Source of the DNA: Ochrobactrum vermis
Lineage (GTDB): Bacteria; Pseudomonadota; Alphaproteobacteria; Rhizobiales; Rhizobiaceae
Reading direction: 5' to 3'
DNA length: 64,000 nt
Assembly (NCBI RefSeq): GCF_002975205.1
Contig: NZ_PCOC01000001.1
Location: forward strand, 1,054,001-1,118,000
Position numbers and translations under genes: made by a program. Under the pieces are notes generated by a model that was given only the letters and a program-made list of their open reading frames with translations, did not search any database and had not been told where the DNA came from. Within the stretch, counting starts at the first letter, position 1. Each line of letters begins with the position of its first letter. This document shows, one piece after another, positions 30,278-45,971 of this stretch.

Positions 30278-31606
30278 ATGCGTCTGTCGCGGTATTTTTT
30301 GCCTATTCTGAAGGAAAACCCCAAGGAGGCGGAAATCGTCTCCCACAGGTTGATGCTGCGTTCGGGCATGATCCGTCAACAGTCGGCCGGCATCTATTCC
30401 TGGCTGCCGATCGGTCTGAAGGTTCTCAACAAGGTTTGCGATATCATTCGCGAAGAGCAGAACCGTGCAGGCGCCAATGAAATCCTGATGCCGACCATCC
30501 AGTCCGCCGACCTGTGGCGCGAAAGCGGTCGCTACGATGCCTATGGCAAGGAAATGCTGCGCATTCAGGATCGCCAGGAGCGTGATATGCTCTTCGGCCC
30601 GACCAATGAAGAAATGGTCACCGACATTTTCCGCTCCTATGTGCGCTCCTACAAGGATCTGCCGCTCAATCTCTACCACATCCAGTGGAAGTTCCGTGAT
30701 GAAGTGCGCCCGCGTTTCGGCGTCATGCGCTCGCGCGAGTTCCTGATGAAGGACGCCTATTCGTTCGACCTCGACTATGAGGGCGCGAAGATGGCTTACT
30801 ATCGCATGTTCGTGTCTTATCTGCGCACCTTCGCGCGTGTTGGCCTGCAGGCGATCCCGATGCGCGCCGATACCGGCCCCATCGGCGGTGATCTGTCGCA
30901 CGAATTCATCATTCTGGCGGAAACCGGTGAAAGCCAGGTCTTCTGCGACAAGGCCTATCTGGATCTGGCCGTGCCGGGCGCGGACACCGATTTCCGCAAC
31001 GATGCGCAGCTGACCGATATCGTCACGCGCTGGACGACGCCTTATGCGGCGACCGAGGAAATGCATGACGAGGCCGACTGGGCCAAGGTCAAGGCAGACG
31101 ATCAGGTTTCGGCACGCGGTATCGAAGTCGGCCACATCTTCCATTTCGGCACCAAATATTCCGAACCGATGGGTGCGAAGGTGCAGGGTCCGGATGGCAA
31201 GGAACATCTTGTTTCCATGGGTTCCTATGGTATCGGCCCGTCGCGTCTTGTCGCGGCAGCCATCGAAGCCTTCCATGACGATGCAGGCATCATCTGGCCG
31301 AAGGCTATTGCGCCGTTCGGTGCCGGTATCGTCAACATGAAGCCGGGCGATGAAGGTTGCGACAGCGTCAGCGAGAAGATTTACGAAGCACTGACCAATG
31401 CAGGCATTGATCCTCTGCTCGACGATACGGATGACCGTCCGGGCGCGAAATTTGCCACGATGGACCTGATCGGCTTGCCGACGCAGGTGATCGTCGGCCC
31501 GCGTGGCGTCGCTGCCGGTGAAGTCGAAATCAAGGATCGCAAGACCGGCGAACGCCAGACTCTGAGCGTTGAAGCCGCAATCAACCTGTTGACGGCAGAA
31601 GCATGA
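30278..31606 (+). CDS. proS: Prolyl-tRNA synthetase, short alphaproteobacterial type
   Basis: This 442-residue class II synthetase charges tRNA-Pro. Motif 2 and 3 regions are visible ([29 protein letters not shown], and [15 protein letters not shown]), with an anticodon-binding domain at the C-terminus. It is about 130 residues shorter than E. coli ProRS because the insertion (editing) domain is missing, as in many alphaproteobacteria. The ribosome site is weak (GGTGG). The stop overlaps the start of lolC by 4 bases (ATGA). Confidence 0.96.
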
Positions 31607-32919
31607 GCAACGCGGCGGCAGCAAAATCCGGGGATCAGGCAAAGGTAGCGCAGAAGGCTCCGAAGTCTGGTCCATTCTCGGCTTTCGAACGGATGATCGC
31701 ATGGCGATATCTGCGTGCGCGCCGCCGCGAGACTTTCATCTCGGTCATTGCCGGGTTTTCCTTCACAGGTATCATGCTGGGCGTGGCGACCCTTATCATC
31801 GTCATGGCGGTGATGAACGGCTTCCGCGCCGAGCTTCTGACGCGAATTCTTGGCATTAACGGCCATCTCATCATGCAGCCGATCGATCGCCCGCTGGATG
31901 ACTACGCCGATCTCATCAAGCGGATCGACGGTATTTCCGGCATCAAGTTTGCCATTCCCGTTGTGGAAGGGCAGGCGCTTGTTCAGGGCAATATCGGTGC
32001 TGGAACCGGCGCACTGGTGCGGGGCCTGCGTGAAGAAGACCTCGACAAGCTCAAGCTTGTTTCCGGTAATATTCGTCAGGGCACGCTAAAGGGCTTCGAT
32101 CAGAGCGGCGGTGTCGCCATCGGGACCCGCATGGCGGAGAATCTCGGTCTTTCCATCGGCGATACGCTGCGGGTGATTTCCCCGGATGGCGATGTGACCC
32201 CGTTCGGCGTCAATCCGCGTGTGAAAGCCTATCCGATTGTGGCGATCTTCGAGATCGGCATGTCGGAATATGACTCGTCGATTGTCATGATGCCGCTTTC
32301 CGAAGCACAGCTTTTCTTCAATCAGGAAGGCAAGGTGCAATCGCTTGAGATCTTTGTCGATAATCCCGACAAGGTGGATACGATGCGCGCGCCGGTGGAA
32401 GAGGCTGCGGGACGTCAGCTCTCGCTTGTCGACTGGCGCCAGCGCAACCAGACTTTCTTCTCCGCTCTGGAAGTCGAACGCAATGTCATGTTCATGATCC
32501 TGACGCTCATCGTCCTCGTTGCGGCGCTGAACATCATTTCCGGTCTCATCATGCTGGTGAAGGACAAGGGGCACGATATTGCGATCCTGCGAACCATGGG
32601 GGCAACCCGTGGCGCCGTGATGCGAATATTCCTGATGACGGGTGCTGCCATCGGCGTTACCGGCACTGTGGCCGGTGTTGTTCTGGGCGTTGTCGTCTGC
32701 CTCAATGTCGAGCGTCTGCGCGAGTTCTTCTCGTGGCTTTCGGGCACGACGCTCTTCAATCCGGAACTTTACTTCCTGAGCCAGTTGCCTGCGAAGATGG
32801 ACCCGGGCGAAACGATTTCCGTTATCGTCATGGCTCTGGTGCTTTCATTCATCGCCACCATTTTCCCGGCCTGGCGCGCTGCCAAGCTCGATCCGGTCGA
32901 AGCATTGAGGTACGAATAA
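31603..32919 (+). CDS. lolC: Lipoprotein-releasing ABC transporter permease
   Basis: This 438-residue inner-membrane permease belongs to the LolC/LolE family and extracts outer-membrane lipoproteins for handover to LolA. One transmembrane helix lies near residues 40-65 ([24 protein letters not shown]), then a large periplasmic domain, then three C-terminal helices of the FtsX type ending [18 protein letters not shown]. Alphaproteobacteria usually have a single permease acting as a homodimer (LolF-like), so the symbol is approximate. The ATPase gene lolD starts immediately after the stop. Confidence 0.93.
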
Positions 32920-33603
32920 ATGGCGGCTGAAATCATCATGCGGCTGGAGCGTGTCGGCCGCGCCTATAAGGAAGTCGACCGTGAACTGGTCATTCTGAAG
33001 GATGCCGATTTCACGCTTCGTCGTGGAGAAATGGTTGCTCTTGTCGCGCCATCGGGCGCGGGCAAGTCGACGTTGTTGCACACGGCGGGCCTTCTGGAGC
33101 GTCCCGACACAGGCGAAGTCTTTCTCGACGGGCGGTCCTGCAGCAAATTGTCTGACGACGAGCGCACGGCTGTGCGCCGCAACGACGTCGGTTTTGTCTA
33201 TCAGTTCCATCATCTCCTGCCGGAATTCTCCGCACTGGAGAATGTGATGATGCCGCAGATGATCCGCGGGCTTTCGAAGAAGGCAGCGGCGGAGCGGGCG
33301 CAGCAACTTCTTGAATATATGAAGATCGGCAAGCGGGCCTCCCATCGTCCTTCGGAACTTTCGGGCGGTGAACAGCAGCGCGTCGCCATTGCGCGTGCCG
33401 TTGCCAATGCGCCGCTTGTCCTTCTGGCAGACGAACCGACCGGCAACCTTGATCCGACGACATCGTCTTATGTCTTCGGCGCTCTGGAGGCTCTGGTACG
33501 GCAGTCGGGGCTTGCCGCCCTGATCGCAACCCATAATCATGAACTTGCTCGCCGCATGGACAGGCGCGTGACATTGCAGGACGGCAAGGTCGTAGATCTA
33601 TAA
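32920..33603 (+). CDS. lolD: Lipoprotein-releasing ABC transporter ATP-binding protein
   Basis: This 227-residue ATPase energises the lipoprotein exporter. The Walker A motif is APSGAGKST, the ABC signature is [14 protein letters not shown], Walker B is [13 protein letters not shown] and the switch His lies in [29 protein letters not shown] is a LolD-family hallmark. It starts directly at the lolC stop with no gap. No obvious terminator follows; a palindromic repeat lies at 33637-33689. Confidence 0.96.
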
Positions 33604-33689: not shown

Positions 33690-33861
33690 CAGTTGCTGAA
33701 TAGGGGCTCATTTCTCCCGGATCCACGGCGTCCCTCGGTGACGCATCGTCGCGATACTCTCACCATCGGCTTATCGCCTCCGCAGGCTTCCGTCTGCGGT
33801 TGTATATTCACTATTCGTAAACCCTAAAATGAATGTCGTGCCGGAACAGGTGTTGACTTTG

Positions 33862-33876
33862 GAACAAAAATAGAAC
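33862..33876 (+). promoter_or_regulatory. Alphaproteobacterial LexA box (GAAC-N7-GAAC)
   Basis: GAACAAAAATAGAAC fits the alphaproteobacterial SOS box GTTC-N7-GTTC read in the opposite direction. It lies just after TTGACT (33853-33858) and inside the spacer of a possible TTGGAA/ATAAAC promoter, where a repressor would block RNA polymerase. It is 38 bases upstream of the small gene at 33915. Confidence 0.65.
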
Positions 33877-33914
33877 AAAAAATAAACATACGTGAACAAA
33901 GAGGAGTTTCCAAC

Positions 33915-34001
33915 ATGACCGATCTCGTCCACGACGTTCTGTCTTTCATTTCGGTAAGCCTGTTCATCGCAACTTTCGCCATATGGGTGAGCGTGATCTG
34001 A
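33915..34001 (+). CDS. Predicted SOS-controlled membrane peptide (28 residues)
   Basis: ATG 33915 follows AAGAGGAGTTTCCAAC, a strong ribosome site. The peptide starts MTDLVHDVL and continues as one hydrophobic helix (FISVSLFIATFAIWVSV, residues about 11-27), ending at TGA 34001. Size, single membrane span and LexA-type operator resemble Caulobacter SidA, a 29-residue SOS-induced division inhibitor. That is an analogy, not a homology claim. A weak hairpin (34019-34049) follows and could end the transcript. It lies between lolD and dnaE, too short for usual gene finders. Confidence 0.6.
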   Translation: MTDLVHDVLSFISVSLFIATFAIWVSVI

Positions 34002-34220
34002 GTGTTTGAACAAGAAAACGCCAGGCCATTCAAAGCAAGGCATGGCGAATTTTGGATCAGGCGCTGACCATACAGCGGGTTCTTCTGTGAACCCGCAACG
34101 AGGTGGCGATAGTCTTACTGGACATCGCCATATCAATCCCCGAAACTGATGCTATCAGGCGACAGAGTCGCCAGCCGCGATGGGCCATAAATATGGTCCG
34201 TCACTGAAGCAATGTGCTAT
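34002..34220. other. Intergenic, two hairpins, no gene recognised
   Basis: CGCCAGGCC...GGCATGGCG (34019-34049, followed by AATTTT) may be the terminator of the small peptide gene. GCGGGTTC...GAACCCGC (34075-34096) is a perfect 8-bp stem without a T run. No coding frame is supported. Confidence 0.45.
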
Positions 34221-34340: not shown

Positions 34341-37300
34341 ATGAGTGATGCAGCAGCAGGTAATGCAGCAAATGACGGTGCGTTGACGCCACATTTTGTG
34401 CATCTGCGGGTACACTCGGCCTATTCCTTGCTGGAAGGTGCATTGCCGCTCGGCAAGATTATCAAACAGGCGATTGCCGACGAGGCGCCGGCTATCGCAG
34501 TTACCGACACCAACAATCTGTTCGGTGCGCTCGAATTTGCGCAAAAGGCATCGAAAGACGGGCTGCAACCCATTATCGGCTGTCAGGTCGATGTTGCCTT
34601 TGGCGATCACAATGACAATGGACGCAGCGTCAATCGTCGGATTGCGCTGGACCTTGCTCCAATCGTGCTGCTTGCCGCAACGGAAGAAGGCTATGCGAAT
34701 ATCGTGCGGCTCGTCAGTCGCGCGTTTCTGGACACCCAGGCGGGTGATCCGGTGCATGTTGAAGCAAGCTGGCTGCCGCTACTGTCGAAGGACGTCATTG
34801 TGCTTTCCGGTGGTGCATTGGGGCCAATCGGTCGCGCTTTTGCCGCCGACCGCCCCGATAGGGCAGAGGCGCGACTGTCTTTCCTGCGTGAAGCTTTTGG
34901 TGACAGGCTTTATGTCGAATTGCAGCGTCAGGCAGGCTACGACCGTACGCTGGAAGCAAAGACGGTTGCACTCGCCTATGAGATGGACCTGCCTCTGGTA
35001 GCCACCAATGAGGCGTTCTTTCTCAAGGCGGAAGATTTTGAAGCCCACGATGCCCTTCTTGCTATCGCAGAAGGCCAGATTCTCTCTAACGATAATCGCC
35101 GCCGCCTGACACCTGATCACCATCTGAAAAGCCGCGCGGCAATGGCGGCACTGTTTGCCGATCTGCCTGAAGCACTCGACAACACGGTCGAAATTGCTGA
35201 GCGCTGTAGCTGGTACACGCAGACCCGCCAGCCGATCCTGCCGCGGTTCACGGGTGAGTCCGATGATGCGGAGGCCGCAGTTCAGGAAGAAGCCGACGAG
35301 CTGGCGCAGCAGGCGCGGGAAGGCCTGAAGATGCGTCTGGAGACCGCAGGTCTCGCAGAAGGCTATACGACGGAACAATATGCCGAACGTCTCGAATATG
35401 AGATCGGCATCATTACCCGCATGAAGTTCCCCGGTTACTTCCTGATCGTTGCCGACTTTATCAAATGGGCGAAAGCCCAAGGCATTCCGGTAGGGCCCGG
35501 TCGTGGTTCGGGTGCCGGTTCGCTTGTCGCATATGCGCTTACGATTACCGACGTCGATCCGTTGCGCTTTTCCTTGCTTTTCGAACGCTTCCTCAATCCG
35601 GATCGCGTTTCGATGCCCGACTTCGATATCGATTTCTGTCAGGACCGCCGTGAGGAGGTGATCCGCTATGTGCAGGGAAAGTACGGGCGCGATCAGGTCG
35701 CACAGATCATCACTTTCGGAACCTTGCAGGCGCGCGCAGTGCTGCGCGACGTCGGGCGCGTTCTGGAAATGCCTTATGGACAGGTTGACCGTCTGTGCAA
35801 ACTGGTACCGCAGAACCCGGCCAATCCGGTGTCACTGGCTCAGGCCATCGAAACCGAACCGAAGATCAACGAGGAGCGCGAAAAGGAGCCGGTTGTCGGT
35901 CGCCTTCTCGACATGGCGCTCAAACTCGAGGGGCTTTATCGCCACGCCTCGACCCATGCCGCCGGTATTGTGATCGGTGACCGTCCGCTGTCGGAACTCG
36001 TGCCCATGTATCGCGATCCGCGTTCCGACATGCCTGTTACCCAGTTCAACATGAAATGGGTCGAGCAGGCGGGGCTGGTCAAGTTCGACTTTCTCGGTCT
36101 CAAGACGCTGACCGTTCTCGAAACGGCGGTCGAACTGGTGGCGCGCAAGGGCATCGCCATTGAACTGTCTCATATACCGCTTGATGATGCGCTGACCTAT
36201 GAGATGCTGTCGCGCGGTGAAACCGTCGGCGTGTTCCAGGTTGAAAGTGCGGGTATGCGCAAGGCGCTTCTCGGTATGCGCCCGGACCGGATCGAAGATA
36301 TCATTGCGCTCGTGGCGCTTTATCGGCCTGGTCCGATGGAGAACATCCCGACCTATAATGCGCGCAAGAATGGTGAGGAGGAGATCGCCTCCATTCATCC
36401 GAAGATCGATCATCTGATCAGGGAAACGCAGGGCGTTATCGTCTATCAGGAACAGGTGATGCAGATCGCGCAGGTCCTTTCCGGCTATTCGCTCGGTGAA
36501 GCTGACCTTCTGCGCCGCGCCATGGGCAAGAAGATCCGCGAGGAAATGGACAAGCAGCGAGTCCGTTTTGTGGAGGGTGCGATTGAAGGCGGCGTCGACA
36601 AGGCGCAGGCCAACATGATCTTCGACCTGCTGGCCAAGTTTGCGGACTACGGCTTCAACAAGTCGCACGCCGCTGCCTATGCCATCGTCTCCTACCAGAC
36701 GGCCTATATGAAGGCTCATTATCCGGTCGAGTTCCTGGCCGCGTCTATGACCTACGATATGTCGAACACCGACAAGCTCAACGATTTCCGGCGCGAGGCC
36801 AATCGTCTGGGCATTGAAGTCGTCCCGCCTTCGGTGATGACTTCCGTCCGTCCGTTTGAAGTCGGCGAAAAGCGGATCTTCTACTCGCTCGCAGCCATCA
36901 AGGGCGTGGGCGAGGCGGCAGTCGATCATATTGTCGATGTGCGTGCCGAGAAGCCTTTTGAAAGCCTTGAGGATTTCTGTGAGCGGGTCGATCCGCGCAT
37001 CGTCAACCGGCGTGTGCTGGAAAGCCTCATCAATGCCGGTGCAATGGATTGTTTCGGTCGTGAACGCCCGGCCATGAGTGCAGGCATGGATCGTATCATG
37101 GGCTTCGCCCAGCGTACACAGGAAAATGCCGCCAGCGGCCAGTCCGATATTTTCGGTCTGTCAGGTGCGCCGAAGGAAACGCTTATTCTGCCGCAGGCGG
37201 CTCCCTGGCTGCCATCGGAAATGCTGCATCGTGAGTTTCAGGCGGTCGGCTTCTATCTTTCGGCGCATCCTCTTGATGAATATCGCGATGTGCTCAACCG

Positions 37301-37832
37301 CATGCGCGTTCAGAGCTGGGCAGATTTTTCCGCAGCCGTGAAACGCGGCGCCAATGCTGGTCGTCTGGCAGGAACCGTGACAGCCCGTCAGGAGCGCAAG
37401 ACCCGCACCGGCAACAAGATGGGTATTGTGCAATTGTCCGATGCCAGCGGCCAGTTCGAAGCTATCCTGTTCTCGGAAGGGCTTGCGCAATATCGCGATC
37501 TTCTGGAAAGCGGCAAGTCGGTGGTGATTACGGTTCAGGCTGAAAATCGCCCCGAAGGAATTGGCTTGCGTATCCAGACGGTACAGTCGCTTGAAGACGA
37601 GGCCTGCCGCATGCAGAAAGCGTTGCGGCTTTACCTGCGCTCCGCTGACGCGGTCCGGCATATCGCACCGCATTTCAACACGCGCGGCGACGGACAGGTG
37701 AGCCTCATCGTCATCAAGGATAACGGTCAGCGCGAAGTCGAAATCGAGCTACCGCATCGCTATCGCGTCAGTCCGCAGATCGCCAGTGCCATGAAAGCCA
37801 TTCAGGGCGTCGTTGACGTGGAACTGGTTTGA
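34341..37832 (+). CDS. dnaE: DNA polymerase III subunit alpha (DnaE1)
   Basis: This 1163-residue replicative polymerase has an N-terminal PHP domain (FVHLRVHSAYSLLEGALPL), palm motifs GPGRGSGAGSLVAYAL and SMPDFDIDFCQDRREEV (the DxD catalytic pair), then helix-hairpin-helix and OB-fold domains at the C-terminus. Length and order match the housekeeping DnaE1, not the shorter error-prone DnaE2. The start is uncertain: ATGs at 34299 and 34323 are also in frame, but the first lies in an intergenic repeat; 34341 is preceded by GGGGTCGATGGA. Confidence 0.95.
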   Translation: MSDAAAGNAANDGALTPHFVHLRVHSAYSLLEGALPLGKIIKQAIADEAPAIAVTDTNNLFGALEFAQKASKDGLQPIIGCQVDVAFGDHNDNGRSVNRRIALDLAPIVLLAATEEGYANIVRLVSRAFLDTQAGDPVHVEASWLPLLSKDVIVLSGGALGPIGRAFAADRPDRAEARLSFLREAFGDRLYVELQRQAGYDRTLEAKTVALAYEMDLPLVATNEAFFLKAEDFEAHDALLAIAEGQILSNDNRRRLTPDHHLKSRAAMAALFADLPEALDNTVEIAERCSWYTQTRQPILPRFTGESDDAEAAVQEEADELAQQAREGLKMRLETAGLAEGYTTEQYAERLEYEIGIITRMKFPGYFLIVADFIKWAKAQGIPVGPGRGSGAGSLVAYALTITDVDPLRFSLLFERFLNPDRVSMPDFDIDFCQDRREEVIRYVQGKYGRDQVAQIITFGTLQARAVLRDVGRVLEMPYGQVDRLCKLVPQNPANPVSLAQAIETEPKINEEREKEPVVGRLLDMALKLEGLYRHASTHAAGIVIGDRPLSELVPMYRDPRSDMPVTQFNMKWVEQAGLVKFDFLGLKTLTVLETAVELVARKGIAIELSHIPLDDALTYEMLSRGETVGVFQVESAGMRKALLGMRPDRIEDIIALVALYRPGPMENIPTYNARKNGEEEIASIHPKIDHLIRETQGVIVYQEQVMQIAQVLSGYSLGEADLLRRAMGKKIREEMDKQRVRFVEGAIEGGVDKAQANMIFDLLAKFADYGFNKSHAAAYAIVSYQTAYMKAHYPVEFLAASMTYDMSNTDKLNDFRREANRLGIEVVPPSVMTSVRPFEVGEKRIFYSLAAIKGVGEAAVDHIVDVRAEKPFESLEDFCERVDPRIVNRRVLESLINAGAMDCFGRERPAMSAGMDRIMGFAQRTQENAASGQSDIFGLSGAPKETLILPQAAPWLPSEMLHREFQAVGFYLSAHPLDEYRDVLNRMRVQSWADFSAAVKRGANAGRLAGTVTARQERKTRTGNKMGIVQLSDASGQFEAILFSEGLAQYRDLLESGKSVVITVQAENRPEGIGLRIQTVQSLEDEACRMQKALRLYLRSADAVRHIAPHFNTRGDGQVSLIVIKDNGQREVEIELPHRYRVSPQIASAMKAIQGVVDVELV

Positions 37833-39816: not shown

Positions 39817-40242
39817 CTACTTGCCGGTTTTGTTCGGTGCCAGTTCGATTGCTTTCAGCTTGCCATCCGTAATGCCACAGCGCAGCGTGATGCTATCCCA
39901 TTTCGTTGAAGCGCTTTTGTTGCGCGCTTCGCCGGGAACCGAAATGACTGCGGAAACCTTGCGTGGGTCACTCGTGCTGAATTTCGAAGACTTATCATTG
40001 GTTTCTGCTGATGAAATGTCATCCTTTGTGAAGCCGAGACGATCATATTTCTTGCTTTTCTTGACGTAATCATAAGCACTGGCAATGCAGTCCGCGACCT
40101 GCGGCGCTGCTTGCTGATCCTTCACCAAAGTCTGGTAGTTGCCCGTAAAATCCTTTGATCTTTTCGGGACAGCATCAGCATGGGCAGCGGTGGAAAAGCC
40201 AAGTGCGAAAATTGCGGAAATTATGAGTTTGGTCGATTTCAT
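39817..40242 (-). CDS. Predicted periplasmic protein of unknown function
   Basis: This 141-residue protein has a signal peptide at residues 1-22 (KSTKLIISAIFALGFSTAAHA-DA). The mature part is small, basic and soluble, with two Cys residues (VADCIASAYDY and LRCGITDGKLKAIEL) that could form a disulfide in the periplasm. I do not recognise the family. ATG 40242 has AGAAGG upstream. It stands alone between the DUF3008 gene and the extensin-like gene. Confidence 0.75.
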   Translation of the reverse strand: MKSTKLIISAIFALGFSTAAHADAVPKRSKDFTGNYQTLVKDQQAAPQVADCIASAYDYVKKSKKYDRLGFTKDDISSAETNDKSSKFSTSDPRKVSAVISVPGEARNKSASTKWDSITLRCGITDGKLKAIELAPNKTGK

Positions 40243-44705: not shown

Positions 44706-45971
44706 TCAGATCACGTGTTCTGCGGGCGGGTTCTGCACCCTGAACAACCGACCGCGTTCAGCTATCAGCACACAGCCAAGGGCGACAAATCCCAGTACGC
44801 AATAGCCCGTTGCGACCGGCGTGGTTGTGCCATCAAACGCCTGGCCGATGAGAGCACCCAATGCCGCGCCGATCACGGTTTGGGCAAAGCCCAGAACGGA
44901 GGAGGCCGTTCCGGCAACCTCGCCGAGCGGCTCCATAGCCAGCGCATTGAAATTGGCGGTCACGAGGCTGAACGAGAACATGATGGTCATGTAGATCGCC
45001 ATCAGGATCGGGAAGGGAACCGGGCCTTCCATCGTGGCTGACAGAACCATCCACAAAAGGCTGAACCCGGTGAAAACCAGCAGCATGGTCTGGGAAATTC
45101 TCCGCATACCGTAGCGGCCAACCAGGCGCGAGTTCATGAATGAGGCAAGCGCCAGCGTCATGGCGACTGCGGCGAAAGCCAATGGGAACAAGGCGCCGAG
45201 CTTGTAGATATCGACGAAGATCTGCTGCGCCGAATTGATGTAGCCGAACAACGCACCAAGGATGAACGATGTGCCCAGCATGTAAAACAGGGCGACGCGG
45301 TTCGAAAGGACGATTCCGAATCCACCGATCACGCTCTTTACGGTCAATGGACGCCGATTGGATGCGGGCAGGGTTTCTGGCAACCGAAAGAAGGCCCAGA
45401 TACCGACGGCAAGTGCCATGATGGCCATAGACAGGAAGATCAGGTGCCATTCGCCGAAAAGCATGATGAGCTGGCCAGTTGCAGGTGCAACGACAGGCAG
45501 GATCATGAAAACCATCATGACGAGCGACATGACCTCGGCCATCTGACGACCGGCGAACTTGTCGCGAACGACAGATACGGCGATCACGCGCGTGGCGGCG
45601 GCGCCAAGCCCCTGCAACACGCGCAAGATGATAAGCGTGGTGAAGTCGGTGACAATGGCCGATCCCAGAGCGGCCAGAATGTAAATGACGAGCCCGCCGA
45701 ACAGAGGCAGCCTACGACCGAAGCGGTCGCTTAATGGTCCATATATCAGCTGAGAAACGCCAAAGCCAAGCAGGTAGGCTGTTATGACGAACTGGACGTG
45801 ATTTTCGGACTGCACGCCAAGACTTGCACCGATCTGCGGCAAGCCGGGCAGCATGATATCGACCGCCAGCGCATTGATGGCCATGATCGCTGCAATGAGC
45901 GCGATGAATTCGCCACGCCCGCGCATGGAGGCCTTCTGGTCCGGCGAACCGTTCTTGATGTCGAGCGGCAT
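44706..45971 (-). CDS. MFS drug exporter, Bcr/CflA type
   Basis: This 421-residue protein has 12 predicted membrane helices. The proton-antiporter motif A is seen in IYGPLSDRFGRRLPLFGG, and motif C-like glycine/proline helices in MMVFMILPVVAPATGQ. The start AINALAVDIMLPGLPQIGASLGV is typical of Bcr/CflA exporters, which expel bicyclomycin, chloramphenicol or other small molecules. The frame is open 15 codons upstream; ATG 45971 with AAGGA about 10 bases before is the better start. The substrate is unknown. Confidence 0.9.
   Translation of the reverse strand: MPLDIKNGSPDQKASMRGRGEFIALIAAIMAINALAVDIMLPGLPQIGASLGVQSENHVQFVITAYLLGFGVSQLIYGPLSDRFGRRLPLFGGLVIYILAALGSAIVTDFTTLIILRVLQGLGAAATRVIAVSVVRDKFAGRQMAEVMSLVMMVFMILPVVAPATGQLIMLFGEWHLIFLSMAIMALAVGIWAFFRLPETLPASNRRPLTVKSVIGGFGIVLSNRVALFYMLGTSFILGALFGYINSAQQIFVDIYKLGALFPLAFAAVAMTLALASFMNSRLVGRYGMRRISQTMLLVFTGFSLLWMVLSATMEGPVPFPILMAIYMTIMFSFSLVTANFNALAMEPLGEVAGTASSVLGFAQTVIGAALGALIGQAFDGTTTPVATGYCVLGFVALGCVLIAERGRLFRVQNPPAEHVI

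Follow-up and report, generated by a model that had tools for sequence, protein, structure and literature searches.

Do rhizobia and their relatives possess a gene for the SOS division checkpoint, and is it a 28-codon open reading frame (ORF) that stands behind a LexA-type box a short way upstream of dnaE in Ochrobactrum vermis? We investigated this question in a window of 64,000 nucleotides (nt) from the forward strand of contig NZ_PCOC01000001.1 (positions 1,054,001 to 1,118,000; G000:C1:1054001-1118000 in our genome coordinates; genome of 5.4 Mb in 3 contigs). The window's family is Rhizobiaceae, used here in the GTDB sense, and its order is Hyphomicrobiales. A sequence-only reading had pointed to a 28-codon frame with a ribosome site, one hydrophobic stretch and a GAACN7GAAC box, and had likened it in size, topology and control to SidA of Caulobacter, a 29-residue inner-membrane division inhibitor (PMC4211646). 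The layout is confirmed in the sequence:

33853..33857, forward strand: TTGAC, likely -35 element, ending 4 nt 5′ of the LexA box
33862..33876, forward strand: putative LexA (SOS) box GAACAAAAATAGAAC, a pattern match 53 nt 5′ of the ORF
33900..33906, forward strand: ribosome-binding site AGAGGAG
33915..34001, forward strand: 28-codon ORF, putative SidA ortholog (ATG at 33915, stop TGA at 33999-34001), product MTDLVHDVLSFISVSLFIATFAIWVSVI

We consider it likely, with a probability of roughly 0.84, that this ORF is the rhizobial ortholog of sidA, repressed by LexA, induced by DNA damage and braking division at FtsW/FtsI/FtsN. Orthology with Caulobacter sidA is well supported by the comparisons below, the deciding fact for SidA identity being genomic place; from this orthology we infer that LexA binds, that the gene is induced, and that the peptide enters the membrane, has the target named and arrests division. 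The ORF is a concrete candidate for the checkpoint, for which the open-licence literature yielded no named gene.

Conservation of the ORF and its probable LexA box

A full-length match to the peptide (E <= 3e-10) was found in all 24 same-genus genomes, O. vermis included, among the 40 genomes searched; the same-genus sample comprised 25 loci, 24 of them distinct. Judged by its pattern of variation, the ORF is under purifying selection: pN/pS, the ratio of nonsynonymous to synonymous polymorphism, is 0.096 across the 24 distinct loci, and variable sites number 10, 1 and 21 at the first, second and third codon positions, respectively. Ungapped identity averages 0.87 over the ORF, 0.86 over the box and 0.92 from the box to the ribosome site, against 0.31 and 0.35 in the two flanks. 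Whether relatives have lost the start, the ribosome site and the box, an outcome that the sequence-only reading had named as contrary to it, was checked, and no such loss was seen: box, start and peptide are retained in all 24 distinct loci, and a sequence like a ribosome-binding site in 23. The product has a single hydrophobic stretch (hydropathy 2.3 over 17 residues), from which one transmembrane helix is predicted. Neither a Pfam nor an NCBIfam family was reported for it (NCBIfam up to E = 10), so this is a conserved small gene missed by both sets of models, and 28 residues are too short for most gene finders. Elsewhere in the analysis, two matches, phrog_1692 (E = 0.026) and TIGR03068 (E = 0.011, below cut-off), were dismissed as chance.

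The box pattern occurs at chance level in the window (3 matches vs. 2.36 expected; 41 of 100 shuffles gave at least 3) and therefore proves nothing alone. Genome-wide, GAACN7GAACA occurs 57 times (27 + 30), compared with 21 (11 + 10) for the reversed control pattern, and the same motif precedes lexA (box at C1:1506916, LexA domain from 1506985) and also stands by uvrA and ssb. Because of this excess over the control and these locations, GAACN7GAACA is very probably the LexA box of this genome. What goes beyond chance at the ORF is the fixed place of the box, not the pattern itself: every one of the 24 distinct same-genus loci has an exact box no more than 110 nt from the start, compared with none of 1878 control windows. 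In these loci the box is always 52-54 nt 5′ of the ATG. TTG(A/C)C stands exactly 4 nt 5′ of the box in all 24 of them and also in 25 of the 32 loci from other Rhizobiaceae.

The box before the peptide is not limited to the genus. Box and neighbor counts refer to the best loci of each search, at most 30. The other-Rhizobiaceae sample consisted of 34 loci minus a duplicate (L094) and L060, in which no peptide has the required size and start and a box is found 118 nt upstream of the frame. For other families, 21 loci were fetched, the 8 without a small family ORF were dropped (L098, L100, L102, L106, L109, L112, L115 and L117), and the 13 kept, together with 21 further non-Rhizobiaceae loci, gave 22 distinct ones. 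Members were chosen by size, the spacing of D and F, and profile score; the box was not a criterion and was never used in the homology searches. An exact box was present in 31 of the 32 other Rhizobiaceae loci, 17 of the 22 other-family loci and 22 of 30 SidA loci. With at most one mismatch it was present in 24/24 same-genus, 32/32 other Rhizobiaceae, 21/22 other-family and 30/30 SidA loci, whereas control windows had an exact box in 0-0.5% of cases and one with a single mismatch in 1.6-2.9%.

Two other exact box patterns in the window, both at chance level, lie at 39832-39846 on the reverse strand, within an ORF of the six-frame list (L075), and at 45555-45569 on the forward strand. Elsewhere in the genome, the box matches at C1:1276163, 1296674 and 1297222 (L077-L079) precede related ORFs of ~68-80 codons. 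For the two products that were scanned, the sole Pfam matches were UBA/CUE-like, weak and under the cut-off; these ORFs are a possible further family of small SOS proteins.

Homology to SidA and the place beside dnaE

To locate SidA itself, we listed the box matches in Caulobacter sp. Root343 (135, vs. 112 for the control pattern) and examined 30 loci plus 12 other regions; a hydrophobic ORF of 29 residues that follows a box was identified as SidA by NCBIfam NF033228 (div_inhib_SidA; 74 bits, cut-off 35). SidA matches were found in 50 of 60 genomes of the Caulobacter family (E <= 1), and 29 of the best 30 loci encode 29 residues, the remaining one 30. Aligned with hhalign, 31 peptides of the window's order matched 29 distinct SidA sequences with a probability of 86.8% over 21 columns, Met to Met and ungapped. 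The score of 24.4 was reached by none of 400 free and none of 400 segment-preserving column permutations (highest 19.1 and 20.4), and the reversed profile scored 9.5. As in SidA, residue 7 is D or E in 29 of the 31 family peptides. At the profile level, then, these alignments place the window peptide family as homologous to SidA.

The window gene agrees with SidA in length (28 vs. 29 residues), in one hydrophobic stretch that hydropathy predicts to be a membrane helix, in a promoter box with predicted LexA binding, in its position just upstream of dnaE, and in D/E at residue 7, with S13-V14 and F17 in register. The resemblance in size, topology and control drawn by the sequence-only reading is thus borne out and is extended by profile homology and by the shared place.

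Several results weigh against this identification. The window peptide lacks the F-V-W core of SidA and has W at residue 24 instead, and its N-terminus is acidic where that of SidA is basic. It fell below reporting in the curated SidA model NF033228 (cut-off 35 bits; NCBIfam scanned up to E = 10), and it is therefore not filed there; we class it as a SidA homolog and positional ortholog. Tests on single sequences come out weaker than those on profiles. With the order profile A4, SidA scores 9.2 bits, a value that 9 of 5000 free shuffles and 25 of 5000 segment shuffles reach; with the Rhizobiaceae profile A3 it scores 5.6 bits, which 122 and 150 of 5000 shuffles reach. A search of 4 Caulobacter genomes with A4 did not report SidA at E <= 10. 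Four of 337 unrelated-looking ORFs score at least the SidA median, although two of the four are leaked family members, and in a fixed-register permutation test 60 and 377 of 100000 permutations reach the score. Finally, in 5 of the 32 loci from other Rhizobiaceae, both lolD and dnaE are missing within ~8 kb.

The neighborhood of the window gene comprises the following genes, the last two of which are given for context only:

31603-32919: lolCE, the gene preceding lolD (NCBIfam match above cut-off)
32920..33603, forward strand: lolD, upstream neighbor (best NCBIfam match TIGR02211 LolD, 264.6 bits, under the cut-off of 307.75)
34341..37832, forward strand: dnaE, downstream neighbor (PRK05673, DNA polymerase III subunit alpha, 1516.5 bits, cut-off 1002)

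The stop of the peptide ORF and the start of dnaE are separated by 339 nt, within which lies a perfect short hairpin, GGGTTC-TTCTGT-GAACCC (34077-34094), with no T run after it; it is present in several same-genus rows of a 17-row alignment from which no numbers are taken, since 4 of the rows (L017, L021, L023 and L024) were wrongly oriented.

In stretches of ~1.5 kb on each side of the locus, dnaE lies downstream in 30/30 SidA, 24/24 same-genus, 21/22 other-family and 12/32 other Rhizobiaceae loci. The upstream neighbor lolD is likewise kept in many relatives, its counts in the same four groups being 11/30, 24/24, 16/22 and 20/32. When the 8 Rhizobiaceae loci with neither neighbor were followed over longer stretches, lolD was found in 3 and neither gene in 5; the boxed peptide is present in all 8, without dnaE within ~8 kb.

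The sequence-only reading had also stated that no equivalent next to dnaE had been described in Rhizobiales. This holds insofar as no paper linking SidA to rhizobia or naming a rhizobial SidA was found in the open-licence literature; it does not hold insofar as Caulobacter sidA itself adjoins dnaE and a small ORF (sORF) is on record in the 5′ untranslated region (5′-UTR) of Sinorhizobium meliloti dnaE1. The latter, sORF25, is translated (Hadjeras et al., PMC10117765, as far as the passages available from that paper go) and stands where this family is expected. Likened by genomic place, it is probably the same gene as that of the window peptide; its authors suggest an upstream ORF (uORF).

Proposed mechanism and alternative explanations

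Because of the orthology, the window peptide is expected to act like SidA. LexA would occupy the box just 3′ of the -35 element and keep the gene off; upon DNA damage, RecA would trigger LexA self-cleavage and the 28-residue peptide would be made. It would then enter the inner membrane as a single helix and contact late division proteins, which in Caulobacter are FtsW and FtsN, so that the FtsW/FtsI/FtsN complex would be held inactive and division would wait for repair. With an acidic N-terminus and a differing C-terminal half, however, this contact may have changed. In Caulobacter, deletion of lexA leads to filamentation because of sidA (PMC12700426, in the part available). By their descriptions, SulA, YneA, SosA, DivS, ChiZ and the SOS-independent DidA can be likened to the window peptide in proposed function, a delay of division after damage. 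A 2014 paper lists yneA, divS, chiZ and sidA as SOS division inhibitors unrelated to sulA homologs (PMC4211646), and YneA is reported to act on FtsW too (PMC13396833), both according to portions of these sources.

The foremost alternative, though an unlikely one, is a SidA relative that still inserts into the membrane under the control of LexA but has a different target, e.g., another division or polar-growth protein. The rhizobial peptides differ from SidA in their C-terminal half (W24, no F-V-W core) as well as in the acidic rather than basic N-terminus, and past residue 18 most columns of the fixed-register comparison score below zero; the place, the control and the ungapped homology over the first 21 residues are nevertheless those of SidA. 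Less probable again is a uORF or leader tuning the expression of dnaE. Hadjeras et al. propose such a role for sORFs in 5′-UTRs, sORF25 included (PMC10117765, from the same passages), and the window family does lie upstream of dnaE in most loci examined. A leader of this kind would be tied to the position of dnaE and free in its peptide sequence, which is not what was found: selection acts on the amino-acid sequence and not on position alone (the pN/pS above), dnaE starts 339 nt beyond the peptide stop, and the boxed peptide is kept in the 5 Rhizobiaceae loci with neither neighbor within ~8 kb and in the 3 with lolD only.

Size, a single hydrophobic stretch and LexA control would equally suit an SOS-induced peptide of the TisB or DinQ kind, which damages the membrane and promotes dormancy rather than blocking division; DinQ is described as an SOS-regulated toxic single-helix peptide (PMC3567139, in part). 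Homology and a common place with SidA speak against this explanation, which we rate slightly below the leader. An Rfam scan gave no credible RNA (one match, E = 0.84 and 14.8 bits vs. a gathering score of 44, was dismissed), with no further search for an antisense RNA. Least credible is a chance ORF next to a chance box. The chance-level pattern count and the 157 ORFs of at least 25 residues in the surrounding 12 kb speak for such a pairing, but ORF, start, box and spacing are conserved in all 24 distinct same-genus loci amid unconserved flanks, which refutes it.

If the window gene is indeed a SidA ortholog, SidA is no longer a Caulobacter-only protein but a family spanning a second order, the translated and hitherto unexplained S. 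meliloti sORF acquires a meaning, and it becomes possible to test directly whether these bacteria inherited the damage checkpoint at FtsW from a common ancestor.

Spread of the family and its box-less relatives

With the profile of genus peptides, 165 of 199 genomes from the family gave a match at a loose threshold (E <= 5); with profile A4, to which members of other families had been added, 122 of 249 genomes from the order did so (E <= 0.1). Relatives are spread across the order and are mostly boxed, the peptides of other families being 26-38 residues long. Class-wide, A4 matched 16 of 288 other genomes (E <= 0.1); these matches are short or interrupted, several of them in long frames, and were read as noise.

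A joint profile that included SidA turned up another 23 loci in the class, 11 with dnaE and 12 without, the latter appearing to be chance matches. At each of the 11 loci with dnaE, an exact box precedes that gene by no more than 900 bp. Three of them belong to the Caulobacter family (at places shared with the SidA search), one to the window's order, and seven to three other families that may belong to Caulobacterales; one locus, L247, scores 15.3 bits with the rhizobial profile and 18.9 with the SidA profile. Among 29 further dnaE loci (L270-L298, from the best DnaE matches of 289 genomes), an exact box lies within 900 bp upstream in 2, both of the window's order, and in none of the 26 loci outside the order, one of which has just 144 bp upstream. 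Because these 26 loci lack an exact box, the peptide gene is not universal in the class. At L277 (genome G260, same order), a box stands 193 nt before the start of the DnaE match, with a 35-residue hydrophobic ORF there; this ORF gets low scores from both profiles (1.5 and 2.4 bits) and is either a highly divergent family member or an unrelated SOS peptide in that position.

A second, box-less relative lies in the O. vermis genome at C1:1234458-1234535 (E = 0.025 as a single sequence, 25.5 bits with the order profile), with genes for exonuclease VIII and RecT 1.5-2.7 kb downstream (L031, G000:C1:1230000-1239000). Box-less SidA-like peptides (MRDLIED...) were also noted at L028-L030, L032-L034 and L299: similar copies lie in other genomes of the genus, the L034 stretch carrying a gene for a phage-type repressor, and one copy is in a viral contig. 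The regions with box-less relatives are thus prophage-like. In phage lambda, kil lies near the red genes, a parallel to the box-less relative with its exonuclease VIII and RecT genes, and the box-less copies are possibly a phage division inhibitor. The prophage form of the peptide had no match among INPHARED phages, and a plasmid search gave no match; for the host form, 29 INPHARED records at E ~7, mostly tape-measure proteins where annotated, were taken as chance.

We give even odds to a broader scenario in which one ancestral LexA-controlled division brake was fixed between lolD and dnaE before the Caulobacterales and Hyphomicrobiales split. Its surviving form would be a rapidly evolving helix of ~26-38 residues, overlooked by gene finders and by curated models, and temperate phages would have taken up the brake as a box-less copy in an exonuclease VIII/RecT early region, possibly as a division inhibitor like lambda Kil.

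Another small peptide of S. meliloti, SEP6 (sORF6), has fewer than 30 residues and a predicted helix, is conserved in Hyphomicrobiales, and was found mainly in the membrane and in the ribosome pellet (PMC10117765, in the passages available).
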